NCBI RefSeq assembly: GCF_000284335.1
Contig: NC_017096.1
Location: forward strand, 1,488,001 to 1,552,000
From: Caldisericum exile AZM16c01
GTDB taxonomy: Bacteria; Caldisericota; Caldisericia; Caldisericales; Caldisericaceae
Direction of reading: 5' to 3'
DNA: 64,000 bases
The position numbers and the translations under genes are program-made. How positions within the stretch are numbered: the stretch's first letter is position 1; every line of letters begins with the position of its first letter. The notes beneath the pieces were generated by a model. The model worked only from the letters and a program-made list of their open reading frames with translations, was not told where the DNA came from and ran no database searches. This document shows positions 37,699 to 46,883 of this stretch, piece by piece.

Positions 37699-37713
37699 GA
37701 GTTGGAGGAAAAT

Positions 37714-40700
37714 ATGGAAACAATTTCAACAATTTACAAAAATCTTTGTCCAAACTGCGGAAATGACATTACAGACGATAGATTAAAATTAGGGCTTACA
37801 TGTGAGGCATGCTTGGATAGGATTGTCCCAAAAGAACAAATCTGTAACTATCTTAAAATAGAGCAGTTTAAATCCTTTTGCAACCTGAGAGAGCATCTAT
37901 CTAAATTCAAAAATACATTTAAAAACACAACCGGCTTTAACTTATCTTCCCTTCAAGAAATGTGGGCAATAAGATTTTTTCTCGACAACTCCTTTGCTCT
38001 TATTGCGGAAACTGGTATTGGAAAAACTACATTCGGGCTTACACTTTCAAAGTACATCTCGGAAAACAACATCGGCTTTGTGTATCTTATCTTCCCAACA
38101 AACATTCTTGTAAAACAAGCAAAAGAAAAATTGTTAAAATTTGGGATTGCCGAAAATGAGATTATCGCATATGATTCAAATCTTCCAAAAAATACGCTTG
38201 AACTTCTAAAATATCGGATTCAAGAAGGCGATTTCAAGATACTTATAACAACTACAAATTTCCTTTACAAAAACTTTGATATGGTGCCAAAGGGTCTTTA
38301 CTCGCTTGTATTTATTGACGATGTTGATTCAATTTTAAAAAATTCAAAAAATATAGATAAGGTGCTTAAACTTCTGAACTTTAACGATGAAGACATTGAG
38401 AAGGCGCTTAAACTTATTGACCTAAAAAGGCTCTCTCTTAAAAATAAGGTTGACCAGGAGACACTTCAAAGTGTCATTGAAGATGTTAATAAAATTAAAG
38501 CAAAGCGAAAAGGTGTCTTGATTGTTTCATCTGCGACAACAAACCCAAAGTCAAAAAAGGTACTCCTTTTTAGGGAACTTCTCAACTTCGAAGTAGGACG
38601 GGTTGTCTCAACGTTGCGAAAAGTTGTTGATACTTATAAAATTGTTGAAGGCGACCTTTTTTCCGAGGCGCTTTCAGAAATTAAAAAACTTGGCAAAGGT
38701 GGACTTATATTCCTTAATACAGATTACACAAAGGAAGACCTTGAAAATTTCGTGCACTTCCTCAATAAAAACGGCGTAAAGGCTCTCTCATATGAACATC
38801 TCACAAAGGTTTTAGAAGATTTTAAGCAGGGTAGTCTTGATGTACTTGTTGGATTTTCTACATACAGAAATCCACTTGCAAGAGGGATTGACCTTCCTTC
38901 CGTTATAAGGTATGCACTCTTTGTGGGTGTGCCTAAGATAAAATTTTCGCTTAGTGCAACCGAAGGGAATAGAGGATTATACTATGCAATTTTGATGCTT
39001 GCACCACATATTACAAGGAAGAAAATACTTAAAGACTCAGAAGTTGCAAAAATCTATAGATACTTAAATATCCTCAAAAGATACTCAAATGTTATTGAAG
39101 AAAGTGGTGATAATCCATATCAAAAAGCATATGCTGAAGCAGTAAATTATTTTAAGGAACTTTTTAAAAGAGAGGATATTGTAAAAATCATCGAAGAGAC
39201 ACCTGATATTGCACTGCAAAGAAAGGGAAATGAACTTTCATTTGTGGTTGTAGATACCACAGGCTACATTCAGGCATCTGGTCGAACTTCCCGCCTCATT
39301 GCAACGGGTCTTACAAAAGGACTTTCTCTTATTTTAACTAATGATCTAAAGGCACTATTGGTTTTAGGGAAAAAACTCAAGTGGTTCATTGAAGACGCTC
39401 TCTTGTTACCATATGAAACAGTTAACATTGAAAGTATCCTCAAAGAAATTGACGATGACCGAGCACTTGTACGTAAAATTGAAAGTGGATTTCTTACTGA
39501 TGTAGAACCAAAATTTGACACAAAACTTGTGATTGTTGAATCCCCAAATAAGGCACGAACAATTGCATCCTTCTATGGTAAACCCATAAGAAGACGTATT
39601 GGAAATCTTGACGCATTTGAGATCATCATGAAAGATACAATCCTCACAATTGCTGCATCAAAGGGACATATTTTAGATCTAAACAAAACGGAGGGGTATT
39701 TTGGCGTTTTGAAGAGAGATGGAATATTTATTCCGCTTTTTGAGCCAATTGACGAAGACAAAGAAAATATTCTTAAATCCTTAAGAAGATTATCTTTAGA
39801 AGTTAATGAGGTTTTACTTGCTTCCGATCCAGACACAGAAGGAGAAAAGATAAGTTATGATTTATGGCTTAACCTTTCTCCTTATGCAAACCACATAAAG
39901 CGCATTGAGTTTCACGAGGTTACAAAGCATGCTTTTGAAGATGCGATAAAGAATCCGAGAAACTTAAATATTAACCTTGTTAAGGCACAGTTTTTAAGAA
40001 GAATTGCAGACAGATTTGTAGGCTTTACAGTTTCGCAATACATCCAAAAGGAAAAGGGACTTAAAACTCTTTCAGCAGGAAGAGTGCAAACACCTGTTCT
40101 TGAGTGGATTGTAAATCGTGGCATTGAGGCATCAAAAAAGAACCCATATTTAAGAGTATTTTTTAGTTCAAAAACGGTTGAGTTTAAACTCGAAAGCACT
40201 CTAAACAAAGAAGAAATCGATAAAGTTAAGACAATCTATGTGAAAATCCTCGATCGACACAAAGAAAATTTATTTGTTAAGCCGTTTGAAACATACACAC
40301 TTTTAAAGGAGGCATCAAACAAATTAAAACTCCCATCCTTTACAATAATGCAACTTGCACAAGACCTCTTTGAGATGGGATTAATCACCTATCACAGGAC
40401 TGATAGTATTAAGGTGAGTGAGACAGGTGTGCGTATTGCAAAAGAGTATATCGAAGAAAATTTCGGGAGTGAATTTGTAAAAATCAGAATGCATTCACAA
40501 ACCCAAGGCGCACATGAGTGCATTCGACCAACAAAAGCAATGGATGTTGAAGAATTAAAATCATATCTTACAATAAACCCAATTTTAGGTATTACGCCAA
40601 TGCATCTTAAACTCTATGACCTTATATTTAGGCAATTTATTGCATCTCAAATGAAGGACACTGTTGTTGAAGGCGGTAAAGTTTTGTACTCTTTAAATAT

Positions 40701-41193
40701 AGGAAGTCTCACCCTTCAAAAAGAGGAAGAGGTAAATATTGGAATTGTAGAAGAGGGTTTCAATAAAATTCACCCTGTTGAAATTTATCCAGTCTCAGAA
40801 GGGATTATTCCAATTGAAAACAAACTTCTTATAAGAAAAAGTGATGTGCCTTTTTATACGCATGCAACAATAATTGAAGAAATGGAGAAGAAAGGCATCG
40901 GAAGGCCATCAACTTATGCAATCACAATTGAAAAACTCATTGCAAGAAAATATGTTATTGATAAAAAGGGTTTTTTAATCCCTACAAAACTTGGTGCTGA
41001 GATTGTAAATCTCATAAAGAAAAATATGAAAATTTCACCATTTGTAAGTGAAGGATACACAAAAGAACTTGAACAAAAGATGGATAAAATAGAACAAGGT
41101 AGCGGGGATTACAACAAAGAGATAGAAAAGATTTTCAACGATCTTCAACTTGAAAAATTGAAAGAATTTTTGAGTCTATCGATTGAAGATTAA
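37714..41193 (+). CDS. rgy: reverse gyrase
   Basis: A 1,159-aa fusion of an SF2 helicase-like domain and a type IA topoisomerase that introduces positive supercoils, a hallmark of thermophiles. It has an N-terminal zinc finger (Cys12, Cys15, Cys30, Cys33), Walker A GIGKT (101-105), a DDVD box (202-205) and helicase motif VI-like QASGRTSRL. The topoisomerase half has TOPRIM Glu609 (VIVESPNKA), DPDTEGE near 705-711 and catalytic Tyr893 (LITYHRTDS). The second zinc finger expected between TOPRIM motifs is absent: no cysteine occurs there. ATG at 37714 is preferred to TTG at 37702 because GGAGG is correctly placed. Confidence 0.97.
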   Translation: METISTIYKNLCPNCGNDITDDRLKLGLTCEACLDRIVPKEQICNYLKIEQFKSFCNLREHLSKFKNTFKNTTGFNLSSLQEMWAIRFFLDNSFALIAETGIGKTTFGLTLSKYISENNIGFVYLIFPTNILVKQAKEKLLKFGIAENEIIAYDSNLPKNTLELLKYRIQEGDFKILITTTNFLYKNFDMVPKGLYSLVFIDDVDSILKNSKNIDKVLKLLNFNDEDIEKALKLIDLKRLSLKNKVDQETLQSVIEDVNKIKAKRKGVLIVSSATTNPKSKKVLLFRELLNFEVGRVVSTLRKVVDTYKIVEGDLFSEALSEIKKLGKGGLIFLNTDYTKEDLENFVHFLNKNGVKALSYEHLTKVLEDFKQGSLDVLVGFSTYRNPLARGIDLPSVIRYALFVGVPKIKFSLSATEGNRGLYYAILMLAPHITRKKILKDSEVAKIYRYLNILKRYSNVIEESGDNPYQKAYAEAVNYFKELFKREDIVKIIEETPDIALQRKGNELSFVVVDTTGYIQASGRTSRLIATGLTKGLSLILTNDLKALLVLGKKLKWFIEDALLLPYETVNIESILKEIDDDRALVRKIESGFLTDVEPKFDTKLVIVESPNKARTIASFYGKPIRRRIGNLDAFEIIMKDTILTIAASKGHILDLNKTEGYFGVLKRDGIFIPLFEPIDEDKENILKSLRRLSLEVNEVLLASDPDTEGEKISYDLWLNLSPYANHIKRIEFHEVTKHAFEDAIKNPRNLNINLVKAQFLRRIADRFVGFTVSQYIQKEKGLKTLSAGRVQTPVLEWIVNRGIEASKKNPYLRVFFSSKTVEFKLESTLNKEEIDKVKTIYVKILDRHKENLFVKPFETYTLLKEASNKLKLPSFTIMQLAQDLFEMGLITYHRTDSIKVSETGVRIAKEYIEENFGSEFVKIRMHSQTQGAHECIRPTKAMDVEELKSYLTINPILGITPMHLKLYDLIFRQFIASQMKDTVVEGGKVLYSLNIGSLTLQKEEEVNIGIVEEGFNKIHPVEIYPVSEGIIPIENKLLIRKSDVPFYTHATIIEEMEKKGIGRPSTYAITIEKLIARKYVIDKKGFLIPTKLGAEIVNLIKKNMKISPFVSEGYTKELEQKMDKIEQGSGDYNKEIEKIFNDLQLEKLKEFLSLSIED

Positions 41194-41225: not shown

Positions 41226-41231
41226 TAAGTG

Positions 41232-41915
41232 ATGGAAGAGAAATTTGATAAAATTGCAAACGAGTATGACCTTTGGTTTGAAACCCCCGTTGGGCGTGTA
41301 GTAAAAGAATTAGAAATTGATGCCTTAATAAGTGCACTTCCCGATTTAAACGGGAAGAAAATGCTTGAAGTAGGTATTGGCACGGGCCTTTTTGCAATGG
41401 AATTTAGAAAACGCGGCGCAGAAGTCTACGGAATTGACCCTGCAAGTAATATGCTTAAAATTGCGCAATTGAGAGGTTTTGAAGTAAAGTTTGGATATGG
41501 GGAAGCAATTCCATTTGAAGATAACTTGTTTGATATCGTTTTATCAATGACTTCAATGGAAAATTCAAAGGACCCTGAAAAATTTGTAAGCGAAATGGTG
41601 CGCGTTGCAAAACCTTCCGGTCGAATTGTTGTTGCGGTGTTGAATGCAATTTCTTTTTATGGCATCTCAAGAAGAATAAGAGGACTGTTTGACCCAAACG
41701 ACTTATTTAGAGGAATGCATTTTTACAATTACTGGGAATTAAGGAACCTCCTTAGAAGACATATTTGTAATGTTGAAGTTAACTCTTCTGTTTTCTTTAA
41801 CCCAACACCTCCAAAGTTTATTTTAGATAGGGCCTATGCCCTTGAGAAATTTGGAAGAAAGTATTTAAAACCATTCGGGGCTCTACTTATAGGAGGAGGA
41901 ACAAAATGCTTATAA
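41232..41915 (+). CDS. SAM-dependent methyltransferase, class I
   Basis: A 227-aa Methyltransf_11-type enzyme. SAM binding is shown by MLEVGIGTGLFAMEF (motif I), YGIDPASNMLKIA and the motif after FDIVLSMTSMENSKDPEKF. It resembles small methyltransferases of the UbiE/MenG group, but the substrate is unknown. It opens a five-gene operon with overlapping ends that also encodes a thiamine-binding-like protein, two radical-SAM enzymes and a Cas10-like HD protein. Confidence 0.85.
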   Translation: MEEKFDKIANEYDLWFETPVGRVVKELEIDALISALPDLNGKKMLEVGIGTGLFAMEFRKRGAEVYGIDPASNMLKIAQLRGFEVKFGYGEAIPFEDNLFDIVLSMTSMENSKDPEKFVSEMVRVAKPSGRIVVAVLNAISFYGISRRIRGLFDPNDLFRGMHFYNYWELRNLLRRHICNVEVNSSVFFNPTPPKFILDRAYALEKFGRKYLKPFGALLIGGGTKCL

Positions 41916-42151
41916 CAGCACAATTTTCAATATACCCATTAAAGGTTGAAAATTACGGAGACTATGTTTATGATACAGTGCGTATTGTGAAAAGTTTTGG
42001 GCTTGATGTAACAGTTGGGCCTACAAGTTCGGTTACATATGGAGATTCGGAATTAATTTTTAAAGCATTTAACGAAGTGATGAGGCAGTTTGAAGGAAAA
42101 GTTCATTTTGTTTTTGTTATTACGCTATCGAATGCGTGCCCCAAACCATAG
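41906..42151 (+). CDS. MTH1187/YkoF-type thiamine-binding protein
   Basis: An 81-aa ferredoxin-like protein of the MTH1187 (Thiamine_BP, PF01910) family, recognised by AQFSIYPLKVENYGDYV and VTVGPTSSVTYGD and by its length. Family members form tetramers and some bind thiamine-like ligands; the cellular role is unknown. It overlaps the methyltransferase by ten bases and has AGGAGGAGG before the ATG. Confidence 0.75.
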   Translation: MLITAQFSIYPLKVENYGDYVYDTVRIVKSFGLDVTVGPTSSVTYGDSELIFKAFNEVMRQFEGKVHFVFVITLSNACPKP

Positions 42152-42166
42152 AAAGGGATTATAAAT

Positions 42167-43033
42167 ATGCTATATTTCTTTTATCCATCAAGAGAAACTC
42201 TTGAAGTAAGTTTAACAGGAACCTCGTGCGCCCTTAACTGTAATCACTGTAATGCTCAATATCTTTCAAGAATGAAAACAAAAGAAGAGATCCTTCAAAT
42301 CCTTGAAAAAAATCCCGGAAGATTTAAAAGTATCCTTATTTCAGGTGGCTCAACGCCTGAAGGCAAAGTGCCCATTCTTCAACACATGGACTTCATTCAA
42401 AAGGTTTATTCAATGGGAATTAAACTAAACTTTCACACAGGACTTTTAACCGAAGAAGAGATACGAGCAATAAAACCATATGTAGAAAGAATTTCTTTTG
42501 ATTTTGTTTATGATGATAGGGTGATTCAAGATGTGTATCACTTAAAAGACAAGACCAAAGAAGACTTTGAAAAAACTTATCTTCTTATGAGAAGAATTAT
42601 TGGAGGACGTATTGAAAATGAGGAAGGTCTACCCCAATCCCGTGTTGTCCCACATATAACATTGGGGCTTAAATGCGGTGAAGTTGATCAAGGCGAAGAG
42701 GACACAATTGATGAACTTGCATTTATAAAACCAACACTTATTGTAATTGATGTCTTTATCCCAACAAAGGGCACACCTTACGAAAATTGCCCACTTCCTA
42801 ATTTAGATAAAGTATTAAAGATGATTGACAAGGCATACAGAAGAACATCTCGCACAACAACCCTCTTTTTGGGATGTATGAGGCCGTTTGGTGAGTATAG
42901 AGAGCGCCTTGATGTTGAAGCATACAAATTGGGCGTTAAAGGATTTGTGCTTCCATCAAAAGCTCTTCGCGATCTTGTAAAAGAAAAAGGTGAGGAAGTG
43001 AGGATATTCAATGAGTGTTGTGCCCTTATATAA
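42167..43033 (+). CDS. radical-SAM protein, COG1856-like (possible LipS subunit)
   Basis: A 288-aa radical-SAM enzyme. The 4Fe-4S motif CALNCNHC follows the strand VSLTGTS, and SILISGGSTPEGK and ISFDFVYDD are the usual barrel segments. The pattern matches the uncharacterised biotin-synthase homologues (COG1856). In archaea and some bacteria a pair of adjacent biotin-synthase-like radical-SAM proteins forms a two-subunit lipoyl synthase (LipS1/LipS2). This gene and the next overlap by 23 bp and fit that arrangement, but the assignment is inference. Confidence 0.75.
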   Translation: MLYFFYPSRETLEVSLTGTSCALNCNHCNAQYLSRMKTKEEILQILEKNPGRFKSILISGGSTPEGKVPILQHMDFIQKVYSMGIKLNFHTGLLTEEEIRAIKPYVERISFDFVYDDRVIQDVYHLKDKTKEDFEKTYLLMRRIIGGRIENEEGLPQSRVVPHITLGLKCGEVDQGEEDTIDELAFIKPTLIVIDVFIPTKGTPYENCPLPNLDKVLKMIDKAYRRTSRTTTLFLGCMRPFGEYRERLDVEAYKLGVKGFVLPSKALRDLVKEKGEEVRIFNECCALI

Positions 43034-44021
43034 AGAGGATATTCTTCAAAAGGATATTAGAGTTTCCATTGGAAGCCTTGCACTCCTTGGGTTAAAAGAT
43101 GTAAAAGTTTTTGCAAAGCCAACAACAATTTACCTTATGGTTGAAGAGCGTTGCATGTTTAATTGCCTTTACTGTGCGCAGGCAAGGGAATCAAATGCAA
43201 ATCTCGAAAACCTATCAAGGGTAACTTGGCCAAAAGAAACATTTAAAAATGTGCTTGATGCATTAATAAAACACAAAGATGATTACAGGCGTATTTGCTT
43301 TCAAGTTGTAAATGGAAGAAACTATTACGAAGACCTTGTTCAATTTTTAAAAGTTCTCAAAGTTTCGCAAATAAATGTGCCAATATCAATTTCGATAAGA
43401 GAAACAAACATAAACCGCATAAGAGAAATGTTTTCCCTTGGGGTTGAGCGTATTGGTCTTCCTATTGATGTTGTATCAAAGGAACACTTCTCAAAAATTC
43501 GTGGAGGAAATTTTGAAAGCACATTCTCTTTTATTATAGATACGGCAAGGGAATTCAAAGGGAAAATTACAACACACATCATCGTCGGACTTAACGAGAC
43601 CGATTTTGAATTGTATGATGCGATGGAAAAGTTTTTTCACAATAATGTGCTTGTGTCATTATTTGCTTTCACGCCAATTAAAGGGACACCTTTCGAAAGT
43701 CATCCGAAAGTCCCAATAGGGCGATATCGGAAATTTCAATTCGTAAGAGCACTATTCTTTAAACACATTCCCTTCGAGCCAATTTTTGAAAGTGGCGAAC
43801 TTTCAGGAGTTAAAATCGATGCACCAAAAGAGAAAATTCTTGAACTTATAAGCGATCCTTCAAACTATATTACTCAGGGATGTCCAAACTGTAATAGACC
43901 TTTTTACAATGAAACTCCAGCGGGGCCATTATATAATTTCCCCACAAAACCCAGCGATACAAGTTTTGTTTTTAAGGACTTTGTAAAAGTTGTTTTTGAT
44001 GGAAAAGTCGAATTCAACTGA
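43011..44021 (+). CDS. radical-SAM protein, biotin-synthase-like (possible LipS subunit)
   Basis: A 336-aa radical-SAM enzyme with the cluster motif CMFNCLYC (in EERCMFNCLYCAQARES) and a C-terminal CPNC pair followed by NRPFYNETPAG, which could bind a second iron-sulfur cluster. A sacrificial auxiliary cluster is needed for sulfur insertion, so this is consistent with a lipoyl synthase-type reaction. Start has GAGG and overlaps the upstream radical-SAM gene. The 3' end overlaps the HD protein. Neither a lipoate acceptor nor a ligase is in the window. Confidence 0.75.
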   Translation: MSVVPLYKEDILQKDIRVSIGSLALLGLKDVKVFAKPTTIYLMVEERCMFNCLYCAQARESNANLENLSRVTWPKETFKNVLDALIKHKDDYRRICFQVVNGRNYYEDLVQFLKVLKVSQINVPISISIRETNINRIREMFSLGVERIGLPIDVVSKEHFSKIRGGNFESTFSFIIDTAREFKGKITTHIIVGLNETDFELYDAMEKFFHNNVLVSLFAFTPIKGTPFESHPKVPIGRYRKFQFVRALFFKHIPFEPIFESGELSGVKIDAPKEKILELISDPSNYITQGCPNCNRPFYNETPAGPLYNFPTKPSDTSFVFKDFVKVVFDGKVEFN

Positions 44022-45501
44022 TAGTAATCCCTTTAGGGATTTAATACTTCTTCTTGAAGTTTCCGTCTACCTTCATGACATTGGAAAACTTTCAAGATAC
44101 TTTATCTCATCTAAGGCAAAAGGCATAAAAGGGCTTGATTATCACGGACAAATTCTCTATATCGATTTTGCACTCAATAGGGTGCCCGATAACCTTTTAC
44201 GGTTTTTAAATAGCGAAGTGTATAAAATTCTTCAAATTGATCCACAAAGTGCGCCATTTGAAATAGATTTTTCTTTAATTCATATGATCTGTGCCCATCA
44301 TGGGTGTAATAGATGTTTAAGGAACCCTCCGTGCAAGCTCAAAGATAAAATTGAAGACTACAAAATTATGGAACTTCTTAAAACCCTTGACCATATGGAT
44401 GCTTCAAACCCACTTGATTCAGGAAAACAGGGTTATAAAGAGGTATTCATTGATAGATTTTTTGAAAATCCAAAGAAGGTTGAAATCGAAAAACTCGATT
44501 CATTAAGGATTGAGTTTTATGAGAAACTTGACTCTGCACTTTTAGAAGAAGGATTTGGAAGTAAGAATTTCAATATTAAAAATTTCCGAAGAAAAGTTTT
44601 AGAGTATTCCAAAGAGCCATTTTTAAAAGCACTTTCTGAAACAAGGCTTTTTGCAAATGACATAACGCTATTTGATCATTCACTTGCAACTGCAACCCTT
44701 TTTAAGATGTACCTCAGCGCATACTTTAATTTTCATATATCTCTTCCAAAGACTTTTTCGGAAGTAAATTATGTATTTATCAAATCTTATTCGGCCAACC
44801 CATCCTTAATTGAAGAGGATCTCGCATTTTCAAACGTGATTATTAAAAATAGCAATTACATCATATTTCCATTTCCAAATCTTTTAAGCAAAAAAATTAA
44901 GAATATCCTTAAAGAACTCATCGGAGATTTTGATGTGATAAAAGACCCATACGACCTTTTTCCACAATACAAAGAGTATCTGTTGTCCTTGAAGGTAAAA
45001 AATATTGAAGAAATAAAAGAAGGCTACACCTACAAAAAGGCAATTGAGGATGTTAAAAGGGTAATTTACTTTGCACTTCTAAAAGAAAAAGAGAATCTTG
45101 CTCAGAAACACAAGAGTTTTACAAGGCATATAAGAAATGTATCAAATGGTATAACAAAAGACAGGATAAACTTTGTAAAATTCCTAAAAAAACTTGTAGA
45201 ATTAAAACGCCTTAAAAAACACCTTGATGCAGAGCCTTCAATTGAAAATATACGAAGTTTTCTTAAAGTATGCTCCTCAAATGAAATAGAGCCTCAAATT
45301 GAAGAATACTTCGACCTCATAACTTCCCCTATTCGTCCACCATCACCAATAGAGATGTCAAAGATGTTTTTGAAATACTATAGAAAAACACACTCATACA
45401 AAAAGGTGCTTAATCGCTTTGTTATCATAAGACCATTGACCCTTGGAAGATTAATCGCATTTAACCGCCTTATCCAGGACAAGCAAACAGCAACACATTA
45501 A
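43999..45501 (+). CDS. orphan Cas10-like HD-domain protein
   Basis: A 500-aa protein whose first 140 residues form an HD phosphohydrolase unit: His26-Asp27 (LHDIGK), His49 (YHG), His95, His100-His101 (CAHHG) and Asp131 (TLDHMDAS). A small cysteine group (Cys98, 103, 106 and 112) lies inside it. NDITLFDHSLATATLFK (220-236) is the segment that follows the HD domain in Cas10 (Csm1/Cmr2) proteins, and NYIIFPFPNLLSKKIKN looks like the first palm domain. The palm's GGDD is missing and no other cas gene or array is present. It overlaps the radical-SAM gene by 23 bp. ATG at 43999 is preferred to TTG at 43990. Confidence 0.7.
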   Translation: MEKSNSTDSNPFRDLILLLEVSVYLHDIGKLSRYFISSKAKGIKGLDYHGQILYIDFALNRVPDNLLRFLNSEVYKILQIDPQSAPFEIDFSLIHMICAHHGCNRCLRNPPCKLKDKIEDYKIMELLKTLDHMDASNPLDSGKQGYKEVFIDRFFENPKKVEIEKLDSLRIEFYEKLDSALLEEGFGSKNFNIKNFRRKVLEYSKEPFLKALSETRLFANDITLFDHSLATATLFKMYLSAYFNFHISLPKTFSEVNYVFIKSYSANPSLIEEDLAFSNVIIKNSNYIIFPFPNLLSKKIKNILKELIGDFDVIKDPYDLFPQYKEYLLSLKVKNIEEIKEGYTYKKAIEDVKRVIYFALLKEKENLAQKHKSFTRHIRNVSNGITKDRINFVKFLKKLVELKRLKKHLDAEPSIENIRSFLKVCSSNEIEPQIEEYFDLITSPIRPPSPIEMSKMFLKYYRKTHSYKKVLNRFVIIRPLTLGRLIAFNRLIQDKQTATH

Positions 45502-45605: not shown

Positions 45606-46883
45606 ATGAATACAGAAACCCTAAAAGAAGTGATTTATACAAACGAGCAATACATAAAAAAGTGGAAAGGAAAAATTATTGAAAGAGAAAATATCGTATT
45701 CCCAAAATCCATTGAAAAGGCAATAATTTTGTATGGCGTAAGAAGAAGCGGAAAGACTTTTATTCTTTTCAACCAATTCTTGAAACATGTTGATAAAGCA
45801 ATCTATATAGATTTTGAAGACGATAGGCTCAATAACTTTAGAATGGAGGATTTCGAAAAGTTAAAGAGTGCAGCAATCGAATTAAAACCACACTTAGGAA
45901 GTGAAAAAATCCACTATTATCTTGATGAAATTCAAAATGTTAAGGGTTTTGAAAAATTTGTAAGAAGAGTTGTAGAAAGAGAAAATGCATCGGTAATTGT
46001 AAGCGGGTCATTGTCAAAGATAAGACCTGAACAGATATCTACAACTCTTAGAGGTAGATCTTGGAGTATTGAAATATTACCGTTTTCTTTTAGAGAGTAT
46101 TTAAAAACACAATCCATCGATTTCGAAAATATTATCCTTATACCGGAGCAAAGAGCGATTCTAAAAAGAAGTTTTCGTGAATTCATTGCATGGGGAGGAT
46201 TTCCAGAGGTTATACTTGCAAAAAACGAGTTTGAAAAGAAAAAAATCCTAAAAGAGTATTTTAATGCAATGTTCTTTAAAGACCTTGTTGAAAAATATGA
46301 AATGACAAACATAACACTTTTGGAATTACTTCTTGATAAATTGTTTTCCTCATATTCAACAAGGCTATCTTTAACTTCTATATACAAGCAATACAAAGAT
46401 AAGATGCCTTTGTCGAAAGATTCTTTATATGACTATTATAAGAAGATCCTCGAAAGCATGCTAATTTTCGAGGTAAGAAAATTTTCTGAATCATCGTATA
46501 AGCGGGCAAGAAACCCTGCAAAAATATACCTTGTTGATGTTGGACTTGCAAAGGATACTACTTCGCAAAATATTGGAAAAAGAATGGAAAATGTTGTATT
46601 TATTGAATTAAAAAGAAGGGGATATGACCTTTATTACTTTGATGAAAAAAGGGAATGCGACTTTATAGCTGTAAAAGATAAAGAATTAACACCAATTCAG
46701 GTGACATATGAAATAAACGATACAAATAGGGAAAGAGAAATCGAGGGGATAGTTGAAGCATGCAAATTTTTAGGAGTTAAAAAGGGTTTAATCATAACCT
46801 ACGATGAGGAAGAAACATTTGAGATTCATGACATTGAAGTAGAAATTATTCCAATTTATAAGTGGTTAATTAGCCTGCGATAA
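45606..46883 (+). CDS. AAA_14 / DUF4143 ATPase
   Basis: A 425-aa P-loop ATPase. Walker A is GVRRSGKT, Walker B-like HYYLDEIQN and a sensor-like SGSLSKI follow, then the DUF4143 C-terminal domain ([12 protein letters not shown] and [10 protein letters not shown], a PD-(D/E)XK-like core). The family is widespread and often duplicated in thermophiles; its biological role is unsettled, with defence or chromosome functions proposed. It has three palindromes directly upstream and ends 18 bp inside the convergent uvrA gene. Confidence 0.87.

Follow-up and report, generated by a model that had tools for sequence, protein, structure and literature searches.

The 64-kb window, that is, the whole stretch of DNA analysed, belongs to a host genome assembled as a single contig of 1,558,103 bases. 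It contains a run of five genes on the + strand, which begins with a class I SAM methyltransferase (41229..41915; Pfam Methyltransf_11, 1.8e-21) and an 81-amino-acid YkoF/thiamine-binding-like protein (41906..42151; Pfam Ykof, 8.9e-10, above cut-off). These are followed by lipS1 (42167..43033; NCBIfam LipS1, 3.4e-81) and lipS2 (43011..44021; NCBIfam LipS2, 1e-96), described in the first-pass annotation as two radical-SAM enzymes; both are present and, with matches above the curated cut-offs, are more exactly LipS1 and LipS2. The last gene (43999..45501) encodes a solo HD protein of 500 amino acids, which is derived from Csx11, the Cas10 of type III-C CRISPR systems. The close linkage of the HD gene to the other four, also noticed at first, is borne out by overlaps of 10–23 bases (methyltransferase/YkoF, LipS1/LipS2 and LipS2/HD) and by a gap of 15 bp between the YkoF-like gene and lipS1. 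The ATG of the HD gene sits 23 bases within lipS2, and an in-frame TTG at 43990 is an alternative start.

Promoter-like and terminator-like sites are no more frequent here than expected by chance. Directly upstream of the operon (37702-41193 of the window) lies a gene for a probable reverse gyrase of 1163 residues, comprising helicase and topoisomerase parts, named from sequence only and suited to a thermophile. Downstream of the HD gene (45606-46883) there is an AAA_14/DUF4143 ATPase, which matches the PADLOC candidate defence model PDC-S01 (3.6e-93); the ATPase occurs in G011 as well and is absent in the other relatives.

The N-terminal part of the solo protein is a circularly permuted HD domain (residues 13–245; 44035..44733, + strand) with the residues H26, D27, H49, H100, H101, D131 and H227, all of which are invariant in the 22 near-complete members of the family. 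His26-Asp27, His100-His101 and Asp131, originally proposed as a Cas10-type set, are found at these positions, and the post-HD segment DHSLATATLFK is D226-H227-SLATATLFK. It is followed by a truncated palm-1 remnant (approximately residues 250–300; 44746..44898, + strand). This is the stretch first described as palm-like, and it aligns with the palm-1 hairpin of Csx11 (8.5e-6 for the hairpin alone). The absence of GGDD, pointed out for this protein, extends to the whole family, no member of which has a GGDD-like motif. The C-terminal half (residues 330–497; 44986..45489, + strand) contains a SPIRPPSP motif, is family-specific and takes the place of the zinc-finger/palm-2 region of Csx11.

Assignment to type III-C Cas10

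The best-matching models for the solo protein are those of type III-C Cas10, namely PADLOC Cas10c (E=9.9e-19, residues 13–244) and NCBIfam Csx11 (TIGR02682; 3.5e-14, residues 13–247). Against the full-length Csx11 model it scores 52 bits, below the curated cut-off of 248.95, which is reached by no solo member. Among 20 family members scanned, the Csx11 model was matched by 19 (best 3.5e-26), the Csm1 model by two (best 3.7e-6) and the HDIG model by eight, with a best E of 0.05. An identity as a dGTPase or HDIG protein was rejected, since the best profiles are Cas10c and Csx11, and what follows the HD domain derives from a palm. The earlier proposal of a Cas10-lineage HD protein outside a CRISPR locus is thus upheld and can be narrowed to type III-C Cas10.

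The Pfam HD profile PF01966 matches 14 places in the host genome, none of them at the HD gene, which fits the permuted order of its motifs. This order is HD (26–27), HH (100–101), D131 and then H227, with no conserved His before HD, and H227 is read here as the probable equivalent of the histidine that precedes HD in ordinary HD proteins. Circular permutation of the HD domain is typical of Cas10, of which Csx11 has been named an inactivated subfamily (PMC3150331). Cas3-HD (Cas3'') is likewise an HD nuclease of CRISPR systems, but its HD domain is not permuted, and the Cas3-HD models give weaker matches to the solo protein, covering residues 10–136 and ending before H227.

AlphaFold2 models of the full-length protein and of residues 1–295 both had a pLDDT of 35. 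Searches of PDB sequences with the HD protein returned no match; a true Csx11 (L052) likewise returned none, which makes this result uninformative.

Distribution of the solo family

In a protein search, relatives were found in 25 of 54 Caldisericota genomes. With G043, which carries a true Csx11, set aside, the solo family is present in 24: 14 genomes of family f1 (Caldisericaceae), five of f2, one of f4 and four of f7, a distribution that follows host taxonomy. In G007 and G019 only a fragment is present, at a contig end; the other 22 members are near-complete. A contig scan with the single protein yielded just one close relative, 79% identical, from a metagenome-assembled genome that bears the name Caldisericum exile.

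A search with a profile built from 20 members covered 386 genomes, of which 332 belong to other phyla. Full-length matches were confined to Caldisericota, and outside the phylum the N-terminal part alone is matched. The four strong outside matches that were read (G098, G272, G223 and G380) are Csx11 genes inside RAMP-type operons; G380, considered as a possible solo member, was rejected as a split Csx11, and in G079 the outside match runs into a contig end. Among the strong hits read, no convincing stand-alone member was found in the 332 genomes, where the weaker hits have a best E of 7e-7, and no solo relative was found in the viral contigs, phages and plasmids searched.

The G043 locus (G043:C90 L052:6611-11019) is a genuine III-C operon, in which a single open frame downstream of an AbiEi gene encodes AbiEii (1–257) running straight into Cas10c (259–1210). 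A toxin-antitoxin pair is here fused into a CRISPR operon, and the Csx11 part of the frame, of about 960 residues, lies among RAMP genes. G051 has, as a second copy, a fragment of the solo C-terminal half that lacks the HD domain (G051:C96 L089:5199-6718); it is in a frame different from that of an upstream ORF and is possibly a broken paralogue.

Comparison with genuine Csx11

The solo protein shares with type III-C Cas10 the permuted HD domain, the SETRxxANDxTLxDHS segment and the palm-1 hairpin, and in f7, and weakly in f2, also the C-terminus. In contrast to Csx11, it is approximately half as long, lacks the zinc-finger/palm-2 region, has a new C-terminal half and is found without a RAMP operon or an array. 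When family profiles were compared with genuine Csx11 by hhalign, f1 aligned over positions 18–352, from the HD domain through the palm-1 remnant (E=4.3e-25), f7 over positions 1–668 (E=2.9e-37) and f2 over positions 3–265 (E=1.6e-18), while controls with reversed sequences were negative (0.12–0.55). The palm-1 hairpin alone gave values of 5e-6 to 9e-6 against Csx11.

The C-terminus of f7 matches that of Csx11 (1.6e-10), f2 possesses a weaker version of it (1.4e-5 for f2 vs f7), and the f1 and f4 proteins stop before this region. Region 330–497 is common to the solo members (f1–f2, 7e-15; f1–f7, 7e-10). In f1 it has no counterpart in Csx11; in its f7 equivalent, a short piece at the end matches Csx11 (2e-4). 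The proteins of the f7 branch have about 680 residues with the Csx11 C-terminus, those of Caldisericum 500 residues without it, and stages of about 680, 560, 500 and 470 residues are present in living genomes. As read from these alignments, the history of the family would be the reduction of a full Csx11 combined with one shared novelty, region 330–497.

In trees of the HD part, f1, f2 and f7 each form one clade, and the solo members make up one side of a branch with support of 94/94, or 85/79 when more Csx11 sequences are included; the branches are long and the deeper order is uncertain. The opposite polarity, with the solo form being ancestral and Csx11 derived from it by domain gain, has a precedent in mCpol, the minimal CRISPR polymerase of Panoptes, a palm-only module that was argued to precede type III effectors (PMC8730458). 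For the HD family this polarity is highly improbable. The truncated, dead palm-1 and the Csx11 C-terminus in f7 are relics that presuppose a full Csx11, and solo members are restricted to one phylum among the 386 genomes, whereas several families beyond that phylum have Csx11.

Among seven Csx11 proteins used for comparison, three (L069, L067 and L068) lack several HD residues, and a fourth, L092, has a T at one aligned position. Measured against two relatives, the HD gene has dN/dS values of 0.10 and 0.08, similar to those of its neighbours (0.02–0.10); they are rough because synonymous sites are near saturation. The HD gene is thereby shown to be under purifying selection. The protein is shorter than Csx11 and its palm motif is gone, as might be expected of a decaying, functionless pseudogene, but such a reading is barely credible and was rejected, being contradicted by the low dN/dS, by frames that are intact in four families and by the invariance of the HD residues in 22 members.

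Proposed independence from CRISPR systems

The gene had been described as having no cas genes or array nearby. In agreement with this, no CRISPR array was found in the window, and in the host genome as a whole there was no match to type III RAMP proteins and no other match to Csx11. The host does possess a type I-B locus, with two cas6 genes, cas8b, cas7, cas5, cas3, cas1, probable cas4 and cas2 and an array of about 22 repeats, placed roughly 290 kb from the HD gene if the replicon is circular. The two cas6 genes are adjacent and different, and lie ahead of the rest of this locus (G000:C1 L070:2334-4118).

In principle the solo protein could still work for a CRISPR system in trans, supplying the large subunit or the HD nuclease for a type III or type I complex whose genes lie at another locus. 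RAMP proteins in nine of the 24 solo genomes and the type I-B system of the host would be in line with such a role, which we nevertheless regard as very unlikely. The remaining 15 genomes have no RAMP match, and G013, G018, G001 and G042, all at least 92% complete, have neither RAMP proteins nor Cas1; absence from draft genomes is not proof, as cas genes can be missed, yet the pattern recurs in three families. Moreover, the type I-B locus of the host encodes a Cas8b and an HD-containing Cas3 of its own, and the regions of Csx11 that follow palm-1 have been replaced or lost in the solo proteins.

The lipoyl-synthase neighbourhood

LipS1 and LipS2 form a two-part lipoyl synthase (PMC9585515, PMC10332631). 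A possible target, GcvH, is encoded by the host. Within f1, six genera have lipS2 in front of the HD gene; the two overlap in g1, g2, g5 and g8, and gaps of about 130–450 bp separate them in g7 and g9. All five genes stand in the same order in g1 and g5. In G018 an IS200-like transposase is situated between lipS1 and lipS2 (L038:4387-5256).

Outside f1 the HD gene has unrelated neighbours or no lipS2, so that the lipoyl operon is a family-level arrangement. In f2 the HD gene is accompanied by genes for a metalloenzyme, an integrase and an ABC permease, in f4 by a CAAX protease and in f7 by DUF58 and DUF4129 proteins. LipS2 and the HD gene are on different contigs in f2 and in G042 of f4; in f3 and in most of f4 lipS2 is present but no solo HD gene is, and in f7 the solo HD gene occurs with no LipS2-level match. 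Conservation of the five-gene neighbourhood therefore holds in full for two genera and as the LipS2-HD pair for six genera of one family, and fails in three other families. The HD gene of f7 comes last in a run with DUF58 and DUF4129 genes (L048:7917-12890, L050:3075-8182), a setting that could hint at a non-lipoyl function.

The functional pairing of the HD enzyme with radical-SAM chemistry, suggested at the outset, is unsupported as a general property, the link being confined to Caldisericaceae; a general role as a radical-SAM partner was rejected in view of the unrelated HD neighbours in f2, f4 and f7. A narrower version would give the HD protein a dedicated role in lipoyl assembly by LipS1/LipS2 in Caldisericaceae, such as the hydrolysis of a phosphorylated or adenylated intermediate. 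This is unlikely, although the adjacency in six genera, often with overlap, and the presence of GcvH speak for it. Both the HD gene and lipS2 are absent in four f1 genomes, a co-loss that would also fit a real functional link there but can be explained by the deletion of one operon. One of the two genes occurs without the other in f3, most of f4 and f7, and they are on separate contigs in f2 and G042; LipS1 and LipS2 are reported to form the lipoyl cofactor together in vitro (PMC9585515). The placement beside lipS is read instead as a lineage-specific expression context and not as a shared pathway.

Proposed origin and role

It is likely that the solo protein is an exapted, CRISPR-independent, stand-alone descendant of Csx11, predicted to be a metal-dependent HD phosphodiesterase or ssDNase. 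From its type III-C Cas10 ancestor it has kept the permuted HD catalytic site and a GGDD-less palm-1 stub; the zinc-finger/palm-2/C-terminal architecture has been lost and the family-specific C-terminal half gained. The gene follows host taxonomy through four Caldisericota families and persists in genomes in which no type III system, and sometimes no Cas1, is found. In Caldisericaceae it has come to lie behind lipS2, where it is probably co-expressed with the lipoyl-synthase operon.

By analogy with Cas10, the activity of the metal-dependent HD site would most likely be the ancestral cleavage of ssDNA. As HD domains also hydrolyse nucleotides, an ssDNase is the default reading and not a finding. 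Control may be exerted by the new C-terminal half or by a partner, replacing crRNA and target RNA, and the protein may serve a chromosomal, CRISPR-independent role in nucleic-acid maintenance or innate defence. The HD domain of Cas10 cleaves ssDNA, about half of III-C Cas10 proteins keep a recognizable HD domain, and III-C loci are described as lacking the cyclase site (PMC11229360), which makes Csx11 a natural donor of an HD-only effector.

The closest parallels outside typical type III systems are mCpol and the type IV-C Csf1. Like the solo protein, mCpol is a stand-alone fragment of Cas10 outside CRISPR, but it represents the palm half, has a GGDD-type site and produces 2'3'-c-di-AMP (PMC12657230), whereas the solo protein represents the HD half without GGDD. 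Type IV-C Csf1, which likewise goes back to type III by reduction and has an HD domain related to that of Cas10 (PMC8730458), carries this domain at its C-terminus and belongs to a CRISPR-Cas type, in contrast to the N-terminal HD domain and the lack of cas neighbours of the solo protein. With a probability a little short of even, the solo proteins constitute a phylum-wide, CRISPR-free, HD-only Cas10 family that mirrors mCpol, in which the ssDNA-cutting half has become a stand-alone effector that is governed by a new control domain and may act as a nuclease in innate defence.

Parts of CRISPR systems have been exapted repeatedly. In the searchable literature, exaptation of Cas10 concerns palm-only (mCpol) or whole-complex cases, and no description of an HD-only descendant was found in the literature searched, which includes few subscription papers. 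For annotation, the solo members, which score under the Csx11 cut-off, might be taken for type III loci that have become orphaned. An HD-only descendant that is fixed and vertically inherited shows a route from a guided nuclease to an unguided cellular enzyme, and it makes testable the question of what the HD site of Cas10 does once it is free of crRNA control.
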